Shown here piece by piece: positions 6,966 through 45,547 of a stretch of 51,190 bases of DNA (the stretch's first letter is position 1; each line of letters begins with the position of its first letter). A program made the translations under genes and the position numbers. This stretch comes from an uncultured Lachnospiraceae bacterium (GTDB lineage Bacteria; Bacillota; Clostridia; Lachnospirales; Lachnospiraceae). The notes beneath the pieces were generated by a model. It had not been told where the DNA came from. It did not search any database and saw only the letters and a program-made list of their open reading frames with translations. Location: contig CAMNJZ010000005.1 of the NCBI GenBank assembly GCA_946541955.1, forward strand, positions 1-51,190, given 5' to 3'.

Positions 6966-7003
6966 AAAAAAGGATTCGGGATCAATTTCCCGAATCCTTT
7001 TTT
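6966..7003. terminator. Bidirectional terminator
   Basis: A perfect stem, AAAGGATTCGGGA with TCCCGAATCCTTT, is flanked by A-run and T-run on opposite sides. It serves the DUF805 gene on the plus strand and the response regulator on the minus strand, whose stop codon lies inside the T-run. Confidence 0.9.
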
Positions 7004-7727
7004 ATTCTCCTGCTTTCCCAAAGCGGTAGCCCTTGCCCCGGATATTGAAAATATATCTGGGATTTTTAGGGTCCTCTTCAATTTTTTCCCGCAGATGGGA
7101 AATGTGTACCATCAGTGCGTTGGCGTCTGAATAGAGATTTGAGTCGAAGATCATCCTGCAGAGCTCTTCCTTGGTGAAGATCCTGCCCGGCTCGTTCATC
7201 ATATTCAGCATGAGTCTGTATTCCTTGGGCGTGAGCGGAATGGAGCTGTCGTTTTTATACAGTCTGAGCCTGGACATATTCAGCTCCAGCTCGTCATAGC
7301 GAAGGGTCGATTTTTCCTCCGTCTGCTCTTCTTCCGTCGGTTCTGTATCCATCTCGTAGCATCTGCGAAGGAGGGCGTTGATCCTGGCCCCCAGCTCCAG
7401 CGCTTCGAAGGGACTTTCCATGCAGTCGTCCGCTCCCAGGTTCATCCCCAGGACCCGGTCTTCCACCCGGCCCTGCCTGGTCAGTGCGATCACGGGAATC
7501 CTGCTGCTGCGCCGGATCTCCTGAATCGCTGTAAATCCCTGGACGCCCCTGGAGACCGTATCGATGATCACCAGATCGGCCAGCGCTTCCTTTTCCGCCT
7601 CCAGTATTTCCACAAGGCTGCTTGCTTCTCCTACCTGGTGTCCCTCTCCCTCCAGGCATTGCTGGACAGTCCTGTTTCTGTCCGAATCATCATGCATGAT
7701 GAGAATTCTGTATTGGTTCTCTCTCAT
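7002..7727 (-). CDS. OmpR/PhoB-type response regulator with atypical receiver
   Basis: A 241-residue two-domain regulator. The receiver (about 6-125) keeps the acidic pair D13/D14, the phospho-acceptor position D56 (VIIDT) and T83, but the nearly invariant lysine of the KPF motif is Ser105 (MESPFEAL). An acidic linker (about 128-140) leads to a winged-helix DNA-binding domain (about 142-237) with normal PLTPKEYRLM, SHLREKI and RGKGYRF motifs. Loss of the lysine usually weakens phosphorylation-driven activation, so it may act independently of phosphorylation or with altered kinetics. It is divergent from two LytS-like kinases 256 bases away; OmpR regulators do not normally pair with LytS kinases, so that partnership is only suggested by position. 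The ribosome binding site is weak. Confidence 0.9.
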   Translation of the reverse strand: MRENQYRILIMHDDSDRNRTVQQCLEGEGHQVGEASSLVEILEAEKEALADLVIIDTVSRGVQGFTAIQEIRRSSRIPVIALTRQGRVEDRVLGMNLGADDCMESPFEALELGARINALLRRCYEMDTEPTEEEQTEEKSTLRYDELELNMSRLRLYKNDSSIPLTPKEYRLMLNMMNEPGRIFTKEELCRMIFDSNLYSDANALMVHISHLREKIEEDPKNPRYIFNIRGKGYRFGKAGE

Positions 7728-7983
7728 ATCCCAACCCCGGTTTTCCTAATACTCTGAACTATGATGCAATCGTCGAAAAACTTGTTTTGCACTGTCTCGT
7801 GAATCAGAAAAGCGAATATTACTTCAGACCGGCTTTCTGTTTTCAAAAGTGTTCATAAAGGGACCATTTTACATAATTGACTGAATATTTGGATTCGAGC
7901 ATACTATCATCGGTTCGGATACACTTTGGTTACACGTATTTGCCGTGCGCTTTGTGCTATACTGATGGAAAAGGAGAGTCGTT
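7728..7983. other. Divergent intergenic region between regulator and kinase
   Basis: A 256-base AT-richer gap. It holds the extended -10 promoter of the kinase near the right end. On the minus side I can see no clear promoter for the regulator. No small gene with a ribosome binding site is evident. Confidence 0.5.
7951..7966 (+). promoter_or_regulatory. Extended -10 promoter of the LytS-like kinase genes
   Basis: TTTGTGCTATACTGAT contains TGC immediately before TATACT (7958-7963), an extended -10, with no good -35 at normal distance. The same 16 bases occur before araR at 47384-47399. The start would fall about 15 bases before the kinase ATG, just ahead of its AAGGAGAG ribosome binding site. 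Confidence 0.6.
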
Positions 7984-9360
7984 ATGCTGTTGGATATTGT
8001 CGCAGCTGCAGAGGTCTGGATCAGTCTGTTCTGTCTGTCTTCCGCTGTGTATCTGTTTACCACATTTCAAAAAAAAATCGATACGCCGGAAGGCCGCAGC
8101 TTTCGCTATCAGGCCGGCCTCCTGTTCATCTGCTTTATTCTGATGATCAGTGACTGTGTGGCCTGGTATTTCAACGGGTCGCGGATGCCCTTTGCAAGGC
8201 AGATCCTCCTCTGGGCCAACACCCTGCTCTACTGTCTGGATTATCTCATGGGGCTCCTTTATACCTGCTACCTGGCCTCCCTCCTGAAGGATTCCAGAGC
8301 CGTCCGTCTCTACCGCTTCCTCTCCTGTCTTCTGTGCGGCACTGCCATCCTCTACGCCCTTTCGAATCTGCATTTTCATCACCTGTTTTTTATTGACCGG
8401 GCGGCCTATTATCACAGGGGCGCTTTCTTTCGGACCCACCTCTGGTTTTCCTTTCCGGTCCTGGTCCTGGCGGCCCTTATTCTCATTTTTCACAGAAAGG
8501 AATTCCGAAAGGGCCAGTATCTCTTCCTGCATCTCTATTATCTCATTCCCGCCTTCGCGGTACTGCTGTCCACCTTCTGGTATGCAGGGATCTCCCTTCC
8601 CAATATCGGCTTCAGCCTGTCCGCTTTTCTGATGTTCTTCACCCTGGCCCAGGCCAGACGCAAGGCCTTCCTGGCGCGCCAGGCCCATGTGGTGGAGCAG
8701 GAGGAGGCCTATGCCGAAATGCGAAGACAAATGCATGACCTCCAGTTCCGGCTGGCCATGTCCCAGGTCCATCCGCATTTTCTCTATAACTGCCTCAATA
8801 CCATTTACTATCTCTGCGGCAAGTACCCCAGGACAGCCCAGCAGGCCATCCGTGACTTCTCAGACTATCTGGACTACAACACCAAGTCCCTGACTGCCCA
8901 GACCCCGATCCCCTTCATCGATGAATTCCGTCATATCAAAAGCTATCTGTCCCTGGAGAATCTCCGCTTCGACGGAGAGCTGGAGATCGAGTACCATATC
9001 CAGACCACCGGCTTCTACATTCCCTCCCTGTCCGTACAGCCCCTGGTGGAAAACGCCTGCGAGCACGGACTCTGGAAAAAAGGGGGCGGAAGGCTGATCC
9101 TGACGACCCGGTTAGACAGGGACCACATCTACATTCTGGTGGAGGACAACGGTGACGGCTTCAATCCCATCGCAGTGACGGGGAAAAACGGCCGGTCGCA
9201 TATCGGAATCGAAAATGTCAGGCGGCGGATCGAGACCATTTCCGGGGGCTCGCTCCACCTCCTTTCGGTAGAGGGCCGCGGGACCTCTGTTAAAATCATT
9301 CTTCCCAGATCAGACGCTGTTCTTTACGGAGAAACGGTCAAAGAGGGAGGTATCCTATGA
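7984..9360 (+). CDS. LytS/YehU-family sensor histidine kinase
   Basis: A 458-residue membrane kinase. The first 230 residues form about six or seven membrane helices with short loops and no recognised extracellular sensor. A coiled linker (AHVVEQEEAYAEMRRQMHD) leads to the His_kinase domain with the phospho-acceptor His265 in QVHPHFLYNCLNTI. The HATPase domain follows, with N-box QPLVENACEHG, G1 VEDNGDGF and G2 GGSLHLLSVEGRGTSV. Kinases of this family usually act with LytTR regulators; none is encoded here. The last four bases overlap the start of the next gene (ATGA), so the two proteins are translationally coupled and probably act together. Confidence 0.92.
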   Translation: MLLDIVAAAEVWISLFCLSSAVYLFTTFQKKIDTPEGRSFRYQAGLLFICFILMISDCVAWYFNGSRMPFARQILLWANTLLYCLDYLMGLLYTCYLASLLKDSRAVRLYRFLSCLLCGTAILYALSNLHFHHLFFIDRAAYYHRGAFFRTHLWFSFPVLVLAALILIFHRKEFRKGQYLFLHLYYLIPAFAVLLSTFWYAGISLPNIGFSLSAFLMFFTLAQARRKAFLARQAHVVEQEEAYAEMRRQMHDLQFRLAMSQVHPHFLYNCLNTIYYLCGKYPRTAQQAIRDFSDYLDYNTKSLTAQTPIPFIDEFRHIKSYLSLENLRFDGELEIEYHIQTTGFYIPSLSVQPLVENACEHGLWKKGGGRLILTTRLDRDHIYILVEDNGDGFNPIAVTGKNGRSHIGIENVRRRIETISGGSLHLLSVEGRGTSVKIILPRSDAVLYGETVKEGGIL

Positions 9361-10679
9361 ATCCATCTCATCTGCTGACAGGCCTCCTGCTCTGGGGCTC
9401 TGTTTTTACCATGGGCAGCGCCCTTTACACCTTCTGGAAGATCCATTTCCAAAACAACAGGAGGGCCTTCTTTCTGGGCCTGCTGCAGGCAAATGTCTCA
9501 CTGGTCCTTCTGTGCTCCGCAGCAGGGAATCTCTGCCTTGCCTCCTCCGCCCCCGACGGATCTTTGTATCTGGCGCTGCGTCTTTTCCTGGTCTATCTGC
9601 GGTCTCAGATGGCCGTTCTGGCAGCCTGCTATATCAGAGCCCTTCTGCCGGGACAGGACCTGAGCCGGCTCTATCTGACCGGCTCTGCCATCGGGAGCAT
9701 CACCGCCGCGCTCATACAGGGTGCCCTGATCTGGCGGGACGCCCTCCAGGGGGCCGCCCCCGCCTTCCTGGAAGGGAATTATCATTTTGCTGTCAGTGCC
9801 AGGATGATCTTTCTGGTATGCTCCCTTCTGGTCCTGCTTGTCAGCGAAAAGGAGCTTGTTCCCGCCTACTACAGGGCTGTCATGATTTTCCTGCTCCCGC
9901 CTCTGCTCACGTCCCTTTTGTGTTTTTCCATTCAGGGCTACCTGGCGGCCATAGATCTGTCCTGCAGCATTTCATCCGTCGCCATGTATGTGATCCTGCT
10001 GCGCCACACCCAGCGTCTGACCATGGAGCAGGAGGAAAAAATCCTGGCGGAAAGGACCCGTCTGGCCAGGCAGAAGGAAGAAATGAACCTGCTGGAAAAC
10101 CAGCTGATCCTGTCCCAGCTCCAGCCCGAATTTCTCAAGGAAAGCCTGGCGACCATCTCCAGGCTCTGCGATACAGATACCGAAGCCGCCCGCCGGGGCG
10201 TCAGCTGGTTCTCGGATTATCTGCGGGAAAATATGGACTCTCTGAAAAAGACGGAGCCGGTCCCCTTCCAGACCCACCTGGCCCATATCCAGAACTTCCT
10301 GGATCTGGAAAGGCTGAACTTCGGAGACCGGCTTCAGTCCTGCTTTGATTTTGAAACGGTCGATTTCTCCATTCCTTCTCTCTGCATCCAGCCTCTTCTG
10401 GAGAATGCGATCCGCTACGGGATCACGCCTGCCGGCAGCGGCTGCGTGACCCTGCGGACCCGGCGGGAAGAAGGCCAGGTCCTCATAGAAATAGAGGACG
10501 ACGGCGCAGGCTTCTCCTACCGGGAGGACCTGGACCAGGCGGGGGCCTACCCCGGGATCCGGGCCATCCGAAGCCGCATCCTCAGCCTCAGCGGCGGCAG
10601 CCTCGAGATTGCTTCCACCCCCGGAAAGGGGACGCTGGCCAGGATCCGGATCCCGGATTCCCGGGAAAAGACCGGTTAA
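9357..10679 (+). CDS. LytS-like protein lacking the phospho-acceptor histidine (pseudo-kinase)
   Basis: A 440-residue paralogue of the preceding kinase with the same plan: about six membrane helices, coiled linker, dimerisation/His region, HATPase domain. In the His motif the partner reads QVHPHFLYN, while this protein reads QLQPEFLKE: the acceptor His is Glu258 (codon at 10128-10130) and the following Tyr-Asn is also lost. The ATP site looks intact (QPLLENAIRYG, EDDGAGF, GGSLEIASTPGKGT). It therefore cannot autophosphorylate at the usual site but may bind ATP, phosphorylate the partner in a heterodimer, or signal allosterically. The four-base overlap with the upstream gene supports a 1:1 complex. 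The frame is intact throughout, so this is not decay by truncation. Confidence 0.88.
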   Translation: MNPSHLLTGLLLWGSVFTMGSALYTFWKIHFQNNRRAFFLGLLQANVSLVLLCSAAGNLCLASSAPDGSLYLALRLFLVYLRSQMAVLAACYIRALLPGQDLSRLYLTGSAIGSITAALIQGALIWRDALQGAAPAFLEGNYHFAVSARMIFLVCSLLVLLVSEKELVPAYYRAVMIFLLPPLLTSLLCFSIQGYLAAIDLSCSISSVAMYVILLRHTQRLTMEQEEKILAERTRLARQKEEMNLLENQLILSQLQPEFLKESLATISRLCDTDTEAARRGVSWFSDYLRENMDSLKKTEPVPFQTHLAHIQNFLDLERLNFGDRLQSCFDFETVDFSIPSLCIQPLLENAIRYGITPAGSGCVTLRTRREEGQVLIEIEDDGAGFSYREDLDQAGAYPGIRAIRSRILSLSGGSLEIASTPGKGTLARIRIPDSREKTG

Positions 10680-10730
10680 AAAGAAGCAGCTATGACTGCC
10701 TCTGCCTTTGCAAAGTCATTCATAGCTGCT
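10677..10730 (-). terminator. Terminator of the zinc-ribbon membrane protein operon
   Basis: AGCAGCTATGA (10685-10695) pairs with TCATAGCTGCT (10720-10730), with a further short stem in the loop. On the minus strand it is followed by TTCTTTTT. It overlaps the last codons of the 10716-11159 gene. Confidence 0.65.
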
Positions 10731-11159
10731 GATCAGCGCATCGATCTTTTCAATATATTCCTGGTAATCGCCCGCCTGGGCCGCAAACCTTTCCATGCGT
10801 TTTTTCTGGAAAGCCGCTTTCTCAGCGCTGCCGGCCTTTTCATAAGCGTGGCAGAGCAGGGCTGCGTCATAGTACATGCCTATTGCCCGGCACTGGGGGA
10901 TGTCCCCCTCATAGACTCTGTGGGCGCCCGAATCATCCAGGGTCATGTCCAGAAGATCCTGATATTTCTCATTGCGCAGGTTCCTGAGATAATCAGCCTC
11001 TTCATAATAGCTGTAGCGGTCCTCCGTGATTCTTTCCCGGATCCGGCCGATCCCCAGGCCCGCTGTCACCAGAAAGAAGAGGATCAGGACAATGGAAAGG
11101 AGCCGAAAGAGTCCTTTTCCCAGGAACCCGCCCCTATTTTGCTTCTCTTTCTTATTCAT
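10716..11159 (-). CDS. Hypothetical single-pass membrane protein
   Basis: 147 residues. A basic start (MNKKEKQNRGG) and one membrane helix at about 18-40 place the C-terminal part outside the cytosol. That part is mostly helical with many Tyr and acidic residues (DRYSYYEEADYLRNLRNEKY). I recognise no family. The general pattern of one helix plus a helical extracytoplasmic domain resembles the two zinc-ribbon proteins encoded just upstream, but it has no zinc ribbon. It overlaps the upstream gene by eight bases and is the last gene of the four-gene operon. Confidence 0.75.
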   Translation of the reverse strand: MNKKEKQNRGGFLGKGLFRLLSIVLILFFLVTAGLGIGRIRERITEDRYSYYEEADYLRNLRNEKYQDLLDMTLDDSGAHRVYEGDIPQCRAIGMYYDAALLCHAYEKAGSAEKAAFQKKRMERFAAQAGDYQEYIEKIDALISSYE

Positions 11160-11916
11160 CCTTCACTACCAGCCTTTCTTCCAGGGTCTTCTGGATCCTG
11201 CTTTCCGACATGTCCACAAGCTCCCGGACCTCCGTCTTGGTCAGGCCCGCATAGACCTCCAGCAGCAGGGCCATTCTGGACCGCATATCTTCAATATAGA
11301 CCATCTTGTCGGCCGCCAGGTAGATCTCCTTCTTATAGGAATACTCCTCCTCCAGATTCCAGAGCTTTGTGATATTGGAGGCCATGGTGGCGCAGGTCTG
11401 ATGGATGGAGTTTTCCTGGAAGCGGTAGCTGCCTCCCTGGACTCTGCTTCCCAGATCCTCCGTCAGCCATTTGTAGCAGGAAGCCGCCCGGAGGACGGCG
11501 CTGTAGGCATCCACCTCATCCACTTCATAGAGGGCGTATAAATGATTGCCGGTATAATAGGCGGAAAGACCGCTGTAGTCTCCGTCCTGCAGATAGGCCT
11601 CCATGTTGGCCAGATGGAGATCTGCCTCCTTAATGATTCTCTTTTCCCGGATATCGTATGCGATTTCAGAGGACATGGCCGCAAAGCCCAGCCCTGCCAT
11701 ATCCAGAAGGAGCAGGACCAGGAGCAGGATCACGGAGATATGCCTGCCTGTCGTCTTCCGGCTGGCCGTTACGACTTCGTCTCTGGTCTGGGCAAATTCC
11801 TGCTCAAAGCGCTGCATCTCCTCCTGATGCTGCCTGGCAAAAGGATTGGGCGTTCCGCAGTAGGGACATTTGAGATCCTCCAGCCCCATATTTCCGCCGC
11901 AGCTTTCACATTTCAT
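11152..11916 (-). CDS. Zinc-ribbon, single-pass membrane protein
   Basis: 254 residues. The N-terminus is a zinc ribbon with two CxxC pairs (CESC at 3-6 and CPYC at 17-20), followed by a charged, probably coiled segment (about 28-55), one membrane helix (about 60-82) and a roughly 170-residue helical extracytoplasmic domain. The function is unknown. The ribbon would sit in the cytosol and could join partner proteins or nucleic acid to a wall-side sensor domain. It overlaps both neighbours by a few bases, so the operon is tightly coupled. The next upstream gene has the same domain order, and the two look like diverged duplicates. Confidence 0.8.
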   Translation of the reverse strand: MKCESCGGNMGLEDLKCPYCGTPNPFARQHQEEMQRFEQEFAQTRDEVVTASRKTTGRHISVILLLVLLLLDMAGLGFAAMSSEIAYDIREKRIIKEADLHLANMEAYLQDGDYSGLSAYYTGNHLYALYEVDEVDAYSAVLRAASCYKWLTEDLGSRVQGGSYRFQENSIHQTCATMASNITKLWNLEEEYSYKKEIYLAADKMVYIEDMRSRMALLLEVYAGLTKTEVRELVDMSESRIQKTLEERLVVKDE

Positions 11917-12689
11917 CGCTTATCCTCCAAATACTGCCTGCAAAGCTTCCTGCACTCGGTCCAGCTGAAATAGTCATACTCATCCAGAGACTTCTGGTAC
12001 AGGTCCGTCGCTTCATTTTCTGACATGCCGATGGTATCTGTCAAGAAGGCCATGGCCATTTTGGCCAGTTCCCGGAGTTTGTCCCGGTCTGCCGCCGGCG
12101 TGCCCTGGGCTGGATTCCGGTCCTGGTCCATGATCCGGAAGGCGTCCAGCATGGCTTCCTCCGCCCTGTCTTCGTCCCAGTCCCCGGCCAGAAGCGTCTG
12201 GGCCGGCAAAACGCCGTCCCTGTAGGTCCAGTAGGCCTGCACATATTCATAGTGCTTCCAGTCATAGATCGCTTCGTACCCTGTCTCCTCGGCTTCCAGG
12301 AGTCCGATCATATAATCCAGAAGGGCGTCGGGATCTCCCGCCTCATAGAGCCGGTCCAGCTCTCCGAAATGCTTCTGCTGATATTCCATCATGGCCTTCT
12401 CATCCCCGGAGGACCTCTGGAAAGAATGCTCCATTCTATAGATCCCAAAAGCCAAAACGCCCAGGACCAGGGCCACCGCCAGAGCTGTCACCAGAAGGCC
12501 CCGGCCCTGGCTGCGGATCTCCCGCCGCAGGGACCGTTTCCCATGGTAGCGGAGATCCGACAGGTCCTCCTGCAGGTCCTCCAGCTGGTCCATATAGGCC
12601 TCCTCTGCCCCCAGGGGATTCAAATGTCCGCAGTAGGGACAGGCCTTTTCATGGGCGTCAAATTCCGCTCCGCAGTTTTCACAGATCAT
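11913..12689 (-). CDS. Zinc-ribbon, single-pass membrane protein (paralogue)
   Basis: 258 residues with the same order as its downstream neighbour: zinc ribbon (CENC at 3-6, CPYC at 17-20), acidic then basic linker, membrane helix at about 66-86, and a helical acidic extracytoplasmic domain. Cys spacing and the PYCGxxNP follow-on are shared with the neighbour, but the outer domains differ strongly. The ATG lies behind GGGAGGGAG. It overlaps the next gene by four bases (ATGA). No enzymatic motif is seen. Confidence 0.8.
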   Translation of the reverse strand: MICENCGAEFDAHEKACPYCGHLNPLGAEEAYMDQLEDLQEDLSDLRYHGKRSLRREIRSQGRGLLVTALAVALVLGVLAFGIYRMEHSFQRSSGDEKAMMEYQQKHFGELDRLYEAGDPDALLDYMIGLLEAEETGYEAIYDWKHYEYVQAYWTYRDGVLPAQTLLAGDWDEDRAEEAMLDAFRIMDQDRNPAQGTPAADRDKLRELAKMAMAFLTDTIGMSENEATDLYQKSLDEYDYFSWTECRKLCRQYLEDKR

Positions 12690-12708
12690 GCTTTCTCCCT
12701 CCCGGGCC

Positions 12709-14043
12709 TTACCTCACGCTGACCTTCCAGTTTTCTTCCTCCGGCTCTATATAGGCGGCATAGAAATCTTCCGTCGAGGCAAAGCCTGTGACCGCATGCA
12801 TGCGGTCGATTCTTACATAGTCTCCCGAATCTATGAGTCCGAACAGGCCATGCAGGCTCTGGGGAATCTCATAGCTGTCCTGATCCAGGTTCCAGCTTCC
12901 GTCCGGATACAGGACCAGGTCTTTGTAGCTTACAAAATAATAGTAGTCAAATTCCGTCTCTCTGTTGCCATAGGAAATGCGGAAAAGGAAAAAAATGGTA
13001 TTGGACGTCTCTCCGCCCTCCTCCCGGCCGGAAAGCAGGTAAACGCTGGCCGGCTGAATCTCCCGGAGGGTCTCGTCCTGGGCGTAGCCGTTCTCCACTT
13101 CTTCCCTGGCCGTTTCCATGGCTTCCTCCTGCAGCGCCAGGAGGGTTTCCTCTCCGATCTCATCCACGGCCATCGCATAGGCCGGGATGCCTTCCACCTG
13201 ATAGGTCATGCCGGTCCGGGTCAGGATCAGACCATAGGCTGCCGCCAGGTCTTTTTCGTCCATGTCCTCCTTCAGGACCGTTTCGATCTGAATCTTGTCC
13301 CCATTGGAAAGGCCACTGTCCATGGAAGCCCTGTAGGTCCAGGGAAGATCGCTCTCGTATTCCATATGGAGCACGCCTTCCGGCGCAGTCCCGCTTACAG
13401 ACAGGATCAGCTCCTCGAAAGGATCCCTTTCCTCCACTTCGGCCAGGCCGCTGATCTGATATACCACCGGCTCCGCCTCGCAGACCAGGCCGTAGCCCTC
13501 CGGATCTCCCGGCTCATAGGCCGCCGTCAGGGTGACCTCGTCTCCGTTGGAGAGGCCTTCCGTCCGGTCCAGGCTGTAATGGACCGCATCCATGATATCC
13601 TGATAATGGGCAGAGGCCTGGAAGGCTTCCAGACCGGTCTGTCCCTCCGCCGCCTCGATGCTGCCGCGGGCAAGGAGGAAATCGGCGATGTCCGATTCCA
13701 GCTTCGCTTCATCCAGCTCCATCTCCACACGGCCATAGCCATCATAGCCTATGGACATAAGCCTGACATAGGCGTTGAGCTGCAGGGCATCCGCCGGCTG
13801 CGTATGCAAAAAGGCCCATACGCCGGCGCCGGCGCCCAAAAGGAGGGCAAGGAGGATCCCCAGAAGAAGGGGGCCCCGGGACCGGGGCCCCCTCTCTTCC
13901 GGCTCCTTTTCTGTATCTGCGTTCATATAGGAAACGGTCTCCTCCGGTCCCGGCTCCTCTGCGCGGGTCTCTTCCTGAAGGGAATCGTCTTCATAAATAT
14001 ATCCATGTTCCGTATAAACAGGTTCTCTCTTATGTCCGTCCAT
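12709..14043 (-). CDS. Membrane-anchored protein with paired GLSNGD repeats
   Basis: 444 residues: an acidic cytosolic tail of about 55, one membrane helix (about 58-79) and a large extracytoplasmic part. Two similar modules each contain a GLSNGDxV/I turn followed by a beta strand (near residues 160 and 245). This arrangement is seen in clostridial membrane proteins that usually begin with a zinc ribbon; here the ribbon is missing, while the next two genes carry one. The last 100 residues look like a separate alpha/beta domain. It is the first gene of the operon. Function unknown; an envelope stress or wall-monitoring role is only a guess. Confidence 0.78.
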   Translation of the reverse strand: MDGHKREPVYTEHGYIYEDDSLQEETRAEEPGPEETVSYMNADTEKEPEERGPRSRGPLLLGILLALLLGAGAGVWAFLHTQPADALQLNAYVRLMSIGYDGYGRVEMELDEAKLESDIADFLLARGSIEAAEGQTGLEAFQASAHYQDIMDAVHYSLDRTEGLSNGDEVTLTAAYEPGDPEGYGLVCEAEPVVYQISGLAEVEERDPFEELILSVSGTAPEGVLHMEYESDLPWTYRASMDSGLSNGDKIQIETVLKEDMDEKDLAAAYGLILTRTGMTYQVEGIPAYAMAVDEIGEETLLALQEEAMETAREEVENGYAQDETLREIQPASVYLLSGREEGGETSNTIFFLFRISYGNRETEFDYYYFVSYKDLVLYPDGSWNLDQDSYEIPQSLHGLFGLIDSGDYVRIDRMHAVTGFASTEDFYAAYIEPEEENWKVSVR

Positions 14044-43579: not shown

Positions 43580-45547
43580 ATGGGACATTCAAAATATCAG
43601 ATGCCGGCGCAGGTCCGGGCAGAACTGCAGCAGCTCCCCCTGTGTCTGGCCGTCTATCATTACAAGAACGGCGAGTATGAATTTGTCATGTGCTCGGACC
43701 AGTTCTGCAAAGCGCTGGAGCTGGACCAGGATATGATCGAAGAATACCTGCTCAATCATACGGATGTCTTTTTCCATCCCGATGACCGGGCCACTCTGCA
43801 CAGCCGCGTCATTGAAATGGCCAGACACCCCGGCGCTGTCTATCCCTTCCGCATGCGCCTCGCCGTGCGGGGGACCTACAAATGGTTCAACGGCAACATG
43901 CGGGGCCGGCTTCTGGAGGACGGAGGCCTGCTTGTCTATGTCTGTACCATGGACATCACCGAAGACCACAACCGGCACAGAAGGGACAAGGTCAAGGATA
44001 TCCTGATGTCCCGCGTGCTGGATACCACCCAGAACTGCATGTTCTGGAAGGATACAAACCGGCGCTTCGTCGGCGTCAACCAGGCCTTTCTGGATTTCTA
44101 CGGTTTTCCTTCCGAGGATGTCCTGGTGGGAAAGACCGATGAGGATATGGGCTGGCATCTGGATCCCGAGCCCTTTAAGCAGGACGAACTGCGGGTCCTG
44201 CAGGGAGAAAGCACCTACATGGTCCACGGACAGTGCCTGGTCCATGGAGAGAACCGGGATATCCTGGCCTCCAAGACCCCGGCCTGGGACGGAGATACCA
44301 TCATCGGTTTTGTCGGAAGCTTTATGGATGTGACCGAATCCTATCGTCAGCAGCAGCAGATCCGGGAGCTGTCCAGAGAGCTGGAGCTGTCCCTGGACAA
44401 GGAAAGACAGCTGAATGTGGAAATGAATCATTTCCTGTCCCGGCTCAGCCACGAGCTCCGCACCCCCATGAACGCCGTCATTGGTCTTTCCACCCTGGGC
44501 ATGGAGCAGGATTCTCTGGAGGACGCCCGCAACTATCTGGATAAGATCCGGATATCCGGCAACTATCTGCTCCAGATCATCAATGAAGTCCTGGAAATGA
44601 ACAAGGTGGAAGCAGGCGATATCCAGCTCAATCTCGAGCCCGTTTCCCTTTTGAAGATCTTCGGGGAGATCCATACCATCATCGATCCCCTGGCTGCGGA
44701 AAAGGGGATCTCACTGGTCCTGGATCCCAGGGGAATCCAGCAGGACATGGTCCTCTGCGACAAAATGCGGGTGGAGCAGATCCTGGTCAACCTGCTGAAC
44801 AATGCGGTCAAATTCACGGAGCGGGGCGGCCATGTCTCGCTGCGGGTCTACCAGCATGTGGAAAGAGGGATCGCCGACACCTTCTTTACGGTGGAGGATA
44901 ACGGCTGCGGCATCAGTCCCCTGTTTTTGCCCAAGCTCTTCCATCCCTTTGCCCAGGAAAACAAAAACCCCTCCAAATACGGAAGCGGCACCGGCCTTGG
45001 CCTGACCATCTCCAGGACCTTTGCCAGAATGATGGACGGGGATATTACCGTAGAAAGCAGGGACGGAGAGGGCTCCATCTTCCGGGTCCTGGTCCGGCTG
45101 GAGGTATGCGGCGAAAACACTGCTGCCCTTCCGGCAGGAGACAGTGTCAGCTATGAAGCCCTGCGCGGAATACGGGTCCTTCTGGCGGAAGACAATCTGA
45201 TCAACCAGGAGGTGGCTCTGGGAATCCTGGGCCGGGTCGGAATCCATGCGGATCTGGTATCGGACGGGATCTCCGCCGTGCATCTGATCGAAAACTCTCC
45301 TCCCGGCAGCTACAGCGCCATCCTTATGGACATCCAGATGCCCTACATGAACGGCTTTGAATCAACAAAAAAGATTCGGGAAATAGACCGGGAAGATACC
45401 AGGACCATCCCCATCATTGCCATGAGCGCAGACATCTTTGAACAGTCCGTCGACAAAGCTGCAAAGAGCGGTATGACCGGCTATCTGACCAAGCCTCTGG
45501 ATATGGATGTTCTCTATAAGGAGCTCCTGCGTCAGATCGGCCTCTGA
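43580..45547 (+). CDS. PAS-containing hybrid histidine kinase
   Basis: 655 residues, no membrane segment, so cytosolic. Order: a divergent PAS-like N-terminus (about 20-130, ending CTMDITED), a second PAS (about 140-255, ending FMDVTES), coiled coil, HisKA with His291 (RLSHELRTPMN), HATPase (NLLNNAVKFT, VEDNGCGI, GSGTGLGLTIS), and a receiver (about 530-655) with phospho-acceptor Asp584 (ILMDIQMPYMNGF) and KPL. There is no Hpt domain or output partner nearby, so phosphate must pass to an unlinked protein. It lies downstream of treR on the same strand and may be co-transcribed. Confidence 0.94.
   Translation: MGHSKYQMPAQVRAELQQLPLCLAVYHYKNGEYEFVMCSDQFCKALELDQDMIEEYLLNHTDVFFHPDDRATLHSRVIEMARHPGAVYPFRMRLAVRGTYKWFNGNMRGRLLEDGGLLVYVCTMDITEDHNRHRRDKVKDILMSRVLDTTQNCMFWKDTNRRFVGVNQAFLDFYGFPSEDVLVGKTDEDMGWHLDPEPFKQDELRVLQGESTYMVHGQCLVHGENRDILASKTPAWDGDTIIGFVGSFMDVTESYRQQQQIRELSRELELSLDKERQLNVEMNHFLSRLSHELRTPMNAVIGLSTLGMEQDSLEDARNYLDKIRISGNYLLQIINEVLEMNKVEAGDIQLNLEPVSLLKIFGEIHTIIDPLAAEKGISLVLDPRGIQQDMVLCDKMRVEQILVNLLNNAVKFTERGGHVSLRVYQHVERGIADTFFTVEDNGCGISPLFLPKLFHPFAQENKNPSKYGSGTGLGLTISRTFARMMDGDITVESRDGEGSIFRVLVRLEVCGENTAALPAGDSVSYEALRGIRVLLAEDNLINQEVALGILGRVGIHADLVSDGISAVHLIENSPPGSYSAILMDIQMPYMNGFESTKKIREIDREDTRTIPIIAMSADIFEQSVDKAAKSGMTGYLTKPLDMDVLYKELLRQIGL

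Follow-up and report, generated by a model that had tools for sequence, protein, structure and literature searches.

A coupled pair of LytS-like kinases

The stretch of DNA analysed here, called the window below, comprises 51,190 nucleotides from an uncultured Lachnospiraceae bacterium whose genome assembly is 85% complete and divided into 164 contigs. Two overlapping kinase genes, named A and B in this work, lie next to a divergently transcribed regulator, with the following features:

7002..7727, - strand: divergent OmpR/PhoB-type regulator with a degenerate receiver; in the window it retains the phosphorylatable Asp but has His for the first acidic residue and Ser for the Lys
7728..7983, no strand: divergent intergenic region between the regulator and A
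7984..9360, + strand: gene A, LytS-like kinase (PF06580 and HATPase_c) of 458 aa, with complete catalytic motifs and a hydrophobic N-terminal half
8776..8778, + strand: codon of the phospho-acceptor His265 of A (QVHPHFLYN)
9357..9360, + strand: ATGA overlap of 4 bases, stop of A and start of B
9357..10679, + strand: gene B, paralogous kinase of 440 aa without the His, outer-loop signature lost
10128..10130, + strand: codon GAA, Glu258 of B at the phospho-acceptor position (QLQPEFLKE)
10140..10142, + strand: codon GAA, Glu262 of B (+4 position, Asn in A)

The preliminary description of this DNA had given both frames, their coordinates and the 4-base overlap correctly, as well as the two acceptor motifs and an intact ATP site in B. 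In the alignment, His265 of A is opposite Glu258 of B, and the Asn at position +4 of the H box is also altered in B (FLYN to FLKE). The ATP-site motifs of B are intact, namely the N box (LLENAIRYG), G1 (DDGAGF) and GKGT, and the N, G1 and G2 boxes are equally intact in A. Compared with PF06580, as the preliminary description had proposed, both proteins exceed the Pfam cut-off of 25.2 bits (A 68.2 bits, B 49.0 bits), and they also exceed that of HATPase_c (26.4 bits; A 36.4, B 38.9). A has both the acceptor His and the +4 Asn of the family and B has neither; judging by these motifs, B is a PF06580 homologue and not a working autokinase of the family. In the better studied HisKA families the residue at the +4 spacing serves the phosphatase reaction, so that B has probably given up this function along with that of acceptor. 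PMC3591291, in its available sections, names the motif HE/DxxN/T.

A hydropathy scan detected several hydrophobic segments in the N-terminal half of A and of B. A carries an outer-loop signature, F..D....Y.RG (FFIDRAAYYHRG), that is common in this kinase group; because A keeps this signature and B has lost it, A would be the member that senses and B the one that serves.

Three PF06580 proteins were found in the genome of the window: besides A and B there is a YesM-like kinase, which overlaps a regulator of its own. A sequencing slip in B is unlikely, since two base changes separate the His codons (CAY) from the Glu codons (GAR) and GAA is present in all three orthologues described below. Recent tandem duplication of A into B was considered and tentatively set aside, because a quick tree does not join the two; having SH-aLRT support only, this tree is weak evidence.

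Conservation and selection in the genus

We searched 62 genomes of the genus for B, many of them incomplete, and found orthologues in three: the genome of the window and two relatives, G316 and G317 (E of 1e-113 or better). Both relatives have the same gene order as the window (divergent OmpR-type regulator, A, B), ATGA at the homologous junction of A and B and, as judged by eye, flanking genes in common with it. Convergent to the kinase pair lies a run of four genes on the - strand (10716-14043), which recurs beside the pair in both relatives. Two of these genes start with CxxC zinc-ribbon-like motifs, with sub-threshold Pfam matches in one of them, and by eye all four contain a hydrophobic stretch; no other Pfam match was found in the run.

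Overall identity among the three B orthologues is 47-49%, and Glu258, Lys261 and Glu262 are invariant. In the catalytic (DHp and CA) half, the B proteins of the window and G316 share 71% identity, those of the window and G317 67% and those of G316 and G317 89%; the values for A are 57, 60 and 85%. For the same three comparisons, dN/dS in this half is 0.24, 0.26 and 0.12 for B and 0.26, 0.23 and 0.21 for A; synonymous sites are near saturation in the comparisons with the window, where the dN/dS of B is not below that of A and B does better in identity and dN alone. These values (0.12-0.26) point to purifying selection on the catalytic half of B. The membrane half is 30 and 28% identical between the window and G316 and G317, respectively, in B, and 51 and 50% in A. 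With its DHp/CA half conserved and its membrane half diverged, B appears to be kept for the DHp/CA part.

A decaying duplicate would account for the missing acceptor residue and loop signature and for the fast evolution of the membrane half, yet the frame of B is open in three species, its catalytic half is 67-89% identical at the low dN/dS given above, and its motifs are invariant, so that decay is hardly credible. The contrary claim of the preliminary description, that B is a functional pseudo-kinase partner, is borne out as probable: Glu is kept in the B of both relatives, translational coupling is maintained, and neither of the outcomes that had been named as fatal to the claim (His in nearly all orthologues, or sequence decay) was found when we looked for them.

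Pseudo-histidine kinases have been defined as proteins that lack one or more kinase functions yet are integrated in signalling, a class credited to Collins and Childers (2021) in the available text of PMC12632262. B shows both the loss of the acceptor and the maintenance of the gene by selection, and is predicted to be integrated in signalling.

Rarity of the Glu replacement among bacterial relatives

Among 57 bacterial relatives tabulated, the acceptor residue is His in 53, Glu in three (B and its two orthologues) and Leu in one (L090), and the ATP motifs are present in all 57. The +4 Asn is found in 67 of the 67 His-bearing kinases tabulated and is absent from 14 of the 16 His-less ones. The counts over 83 kinases leave out L001, the third PF06580 kinase of the window's genome, which has the His but sits on a long branch; L083_710 with a matching L051 fragment (a hybrid kinase, represented by its HATPase part alone); the upstream member of L132/L133, again long-branched, with the His but a defective ATP site; L038, L040 and L041, in which the match spans a core of less than 170 residues (L038 and L040 have His); and L137, which is cut in two by an in-frame TAG. 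The upstream member of L132 and L137 are counted in the tally of same-contig pairs given below.

A strict DNA pattern for SQ-x-x-PEF matched in 29 of 397 genomes of the family, a number close to that of a backward control (22 genomes among the matches listed), and the only kinase frame among the 29 matches is that of the window; the pattern would miss variants, and G316 and G317 lie outside the 397-genome draw. Other loci of the family with two such kinases (L077, L078, L091, L092) have His in both members, and a His-less partner is therefore not a general feature of two-kinase loci.

The Leu-bearing protein (L160:6238-7563 on G207:C18, the L090 of the tabulation) is a LytS-like kinase with SQIKPLFLYN at the acceptor position, in which the +4 Asn and the ATP motifs are kept; we read it as a recent loss of the His. 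No second such kinase was found in the 14 kb read, and two adjoining genes resemble ABC transporters by eye. According to a 2025 review, 0.9% of HisKA and 0.3% of HisKA_3 domains are without the His; its available sections do not list PF06580 (PMC12632262).

Complementary kinase pairs in archaea

A scan of the contig collection with patterns from B returned three relatives: the G317 locus, the G316 locus and a Glu-bearing kinase at L099. One of the patterns contains PEF, so that Glu in the scan matches is by construction; the other archaeal kinases come from the L099 locus itself or from similarity to P0004, the Glu-bearing protein there, with no motif filter. The L099 record reads 'archaeon isolate Horse_feces3 MAG003', domain Archaea, and it is on this basis that we call the group archaeal; such kinases occur in 7 of 102 genomes of its family. 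One archaeal pair is adjoined by a gene for a Trm1-type tRNA methyltransferase, an archaeal habit, which fits an archaeal origin. In a quick tree of 83 kinases the 26 archaeal ones form one side of a branch (SH-aLRT 100), and we therefore take their His losses to be independent of that in B.

By motif, 10 of these 26 kinases have the His and a lost ATP site, 12 have lost the His and keep the ATP site, four are intact and none has lost both (Fisher p = 0.0002, uncorrected for relatedness). Members of unequal state are paired on one contig in ten cases (G457 C157 and C21, G471 C1 twice, G476 C108 and C140, G478 C43 and C54, G480 C12 and C19). All ten include a His-less member that bears the ATP motifs, and in nine the other member keeps the His and has lost the N-box Asn; by motif, these nine have the split-kinase arrangement in which the protein with the acceptor has lost its ATP site. 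The exception (G457 C157) pairs a His-less kinase with an intact one, like the window. Since the His and the only good ATP motifs are on different chains, the archaeal pairs argue for transfer in trans in this kinase group.

An eleventh pair, a tandem in G508 (L139/L169), has two intact members, which fits duplication followed by complementary loss; an intact tandem pair of this type is a plausible starting state. Besides the two G508 kinases, the archaeal proteins without an opposite partner on the same contig are L130 (intact and single), L156 (Thr at the acceptor position, no partner seen) and four from G479, two of them His-less and two His-bearing with a broken ATP site, whose partners are likely on different contigs. 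At L099 the outer-loop signature does not follow the His: P0004, with Glu, keeps it, and its His-bearing neighbour lacks it, which speaks against the reading that A senses and B serves. The His-less kinase L137 (G476:C108; L170:6538-7950) is split by one in-frame TAG into two pieces that both match well. Since TAG encodes pyrrolysine in some gut methanogens, this one may not be a stop.

The residue that replaces the His in the 12 archaeal His-less kinases is Glu in six, Tyr in two, and Ala, Asn, Arg and Thr in one each, and close relatives of P0004 vary between Glu and Tyr. This leaves unsupported the suggestion of the preliminary description that Glu258 mimics phospho-His, which would lock B or the dimer in one state. 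Glu is indeed fixed in the three orthologues of B and is the commonest replacement in the archaeal group, but half of that group has another residue and a carboxylate is a poor mimic of phospho-His. As the replacements vary while the His-less, ATP-bearing state is constant, the case for mimicry is weak and we give it very little credence.

An adjacent pseudo-receiver and an unlinked regulator

The divergent regulator (7002-7727) has lost two of the five residues that we take to be its receiver switch residues, and can be classed as a pseudo-receiver protein. Its G316 and G317 orthologues retain the phosphorylatable Asp but have lost the acidic pair as well as the Thr and the Lys; the gene is nevertheless well conserved, with 64-65% identity to these orthologues and a dN/dS of 0.2. 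A run of 21 identical bases in the early codons of the regulator (7692-7712) is common to both relatives, with whole-gene dS above 1, and is possibly an overlapping operator. We looked for a conserved operator in the intergenic region and found no clear repeat by eye, the longest identical stretch being the early codons of the regulator.

Pseudo-kinase and degenerate-receiver regulator stand side by side in all three loci. This would suit a DivL-like role for B as a non-catalytic scaffold or input sensor, whose DHp/CA part would read a regulator or other protein, possibly that of 7002-7727, and control A allosterically. DivL is described as a histidine kinase repurposed as an input sensor in the available part of PMC4211667, and a comparison of B with PDB sequences gave 11 matches, DivL being one of them (E = 0.0004). 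Such a scaffold needs no invariant N, G1 and G2 boxes, however, and B keeps them in three of three orthologues, which makes this role improbable.

In the wider kinase group, a regulator of about 260 aa with a receiver and a winged helix is close by in 14 of the 20 bacterial loci fetched (L073-L092), that of L078 being counted from a 118-aa frame only. The six loci without it include L073 and L074, which are orthologous to that of the window. The same regulator type adjoins six of the ten archaeal pairs, with Trans_reg_C below the cut-off in the two archaeal regulators tested; the stretches read around the other four pairs (L162, L164, L165, L166) did not show it. The preliminary description was right that no LytTR regulator is nearby, but this is beside the point, as the usual adjoining regulator is of the receiver/winged-helix type. 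A LytTR partner was considered and is not favoured: of the two LytTR regulators of the genome, the one on C35 adjoins a HATPase_c_5 kinase, and the one on C75 is near a contig end. Elsewhere in the window, a 655-aa frame (43580-45547) contains another receiver domain (PF00072, 70 bits, 45176-45523).

A receiver/winged-helix regulator is encoded on contig C66 of the window's genome (L191:7944-8777, G000:C66; E = 2.7e-78), and by eye its receiver switch residues are present. G317 has a syntenic orthologue that is 58.7% identical (L192:1701-2513, G317:C19); none was found in the G316 genome, which is 76% complete. We detected no PF06580-type kinase in the 11.4 kb of the C66 contig or in the 8 kb read around the G317 orthologue. 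Because the YesM-like third kinase overlaps its own regulator and the C66 regulator has no such kinase nearby, we propose the latter as the target of phosphorylated A. Over 51 genomes, the regulator is present in 11 of the 17 whose kinase relative scores above 90 bits and in 7 of 34 without one (one-sided p = 0.003), a loose co-occurrence that is suggestive only. Across the genus it is found in 21 of 62 genomes and B in three, so it is not specific to the A/B cassette.

A possible heterodimeric sensor kinase

On balance, and by a narrow preference, we favour a heterodimeric membrane sensor kinase made up of A and B, in which B is the ATP-using partner and donates in trans to His265 of A. The complementary losses in the archaeal pairs are the strongest evidence for this view. 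From the sequences we infer dimerisation, ATP binding, the direction of phosphotransfer, the identity of the regulator and sensing, as follows. Without the His, and also without the +4 Asn, B would be unable to accept phosphate; it would bind ATP and pass the gamma-phosphate in trans to His265 of A. A would then be the sole phosphodonor and, through its HxxxN motif, probably the sole phosphatase. A may read the signal by its conserved outer loop, the membrane half of B having diverged. Phosphorylated A would most likely serve the unlinked C66 regulator, which is of the type usual beside this kinase group, and control of the locus by the adjacent pseudo-receiver regulator is probably independent of phosphate. 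A homodimer of A may still work, in which case B would contribute a further input or alter the output.

By motifs, B has lost the acceptor and kept the ATP site, as one half of a split kinase would. A keeps the acceptor and also a complete ATP site, which speaks against the mechanism: the two proteins are no obligate split kinase, and A could function by itself. Further points against it are that the quick tree does not place A and B as sisters, that the dN/dS of B in the comparisons with the window is not below that of A, that the outer-loop signature at L099 is on the His-less protein, and that the proposed regulator was not found in G316 and co-occurs only loosely with such kinases. The full active site of A, which could phosphorylate itself as a homodimer, also agrees with the main rival, namely that B is a regulatory decoy that binds ATP, pairs with A and tunes or poisons it (by half-active dimers or titration) while supplying no catalysis. 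Modulation of a partner by hetero-oligomers is reported for RetS/GacS and for native ChrS with HrrS in the available text of PMC9491836. A decoy alone leaves unexplained why the CA domain of B keeps every motif, with an identity above that of A, and why the only good ATP site of the archaeal pairs is on the His-less member. We hold this rival to be unlikely, though far from negligible.

A broader scenario can be drawn, which we consider nearly as apt to be right as wrong: membrane sensor histidine kinases would have passed from homodimer to heterodimer independently in gut Lachnospiraceae and in an archaeal lineage, with a dedicated ATP-donor subunit (His and mostly +4 Asn lost) and a phosphodonor subunit. 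The archaeal subunits would have degenerated complementarily after duplication and be obligate split-site kinases, and the window would represent a one-sided stage.

Relation to known systems and significance

Split kinases, such as CheA3/CheA4, and pseudo-histidine kinases, such as DivL, are already known kinds. In CheA3/CheA4 of Rhodobacter sphaeroides, the acceptor and the ATP-using activity are on two proteins that work only together, which is the mechanism proposed for A and B, and the archaeal pairs resemble this split closely by sequence (PMC3591291, available sections, here and in the next two sentences). CheA3/CheA4, however, are chemotaxis proteins without whole domains, whereas A/B and the archaeal pairs are full-length membrane sensor kinases with changed motifs; unlike the split CheA3/CheA4, A in the window keeps its ATP site. 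The same sections count HisKA proteins without a HATPase domain, not His-less kinases.

Within the LytS/YesM (PF06580) kinases, A and B are members by domain score, B without the acceptor His. DivL of Caulobacter resembles B: Tyr replaces its acceptor His, the kinase fold is preserved, and it works together with a second histidine kinase (CckA). It belongs to the HisKA family, not PF06580, and is not known to share a coupled operon with its partner. The ATPase domain and acceptor residue of DivL are reported to be unnecessary (PMC9491836, available text), whereas the ATP motifs are conserved in B. In Corynebacterium, the native paralogous kinases ChrS and HrrS heterodimerise in two-hybrid assays and a defective ChrS still aids signalling. 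The defect in this ChrS, however, is a laboratory mutation that breaks the CA domain, opposite to the situation in B, and no heterodimer of the mutant was detected (PMC9491836, available text). Searches of open-access full-text papers yielded no description of PF06580 sensor kinases that lack the His, are ATP-competent and have His-bearing partners, and none of complementary kinase pairs in archaea.

Histidine kinases are taught as homodimers, and whether they phosphorylate in cis or in trans is debated case by case. A natural pair in which opposite halves of the active site are lost would settle this for the present kinase group, and a complementary pair would provide a clean test of trans-phosphorylation in vivo. 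If the pair splits an active site, pseudo-histidine kinases would gain a catalytic role and not merely a regulatory one, and such a division of work suggests a route by which a duplicate kinase is retained.
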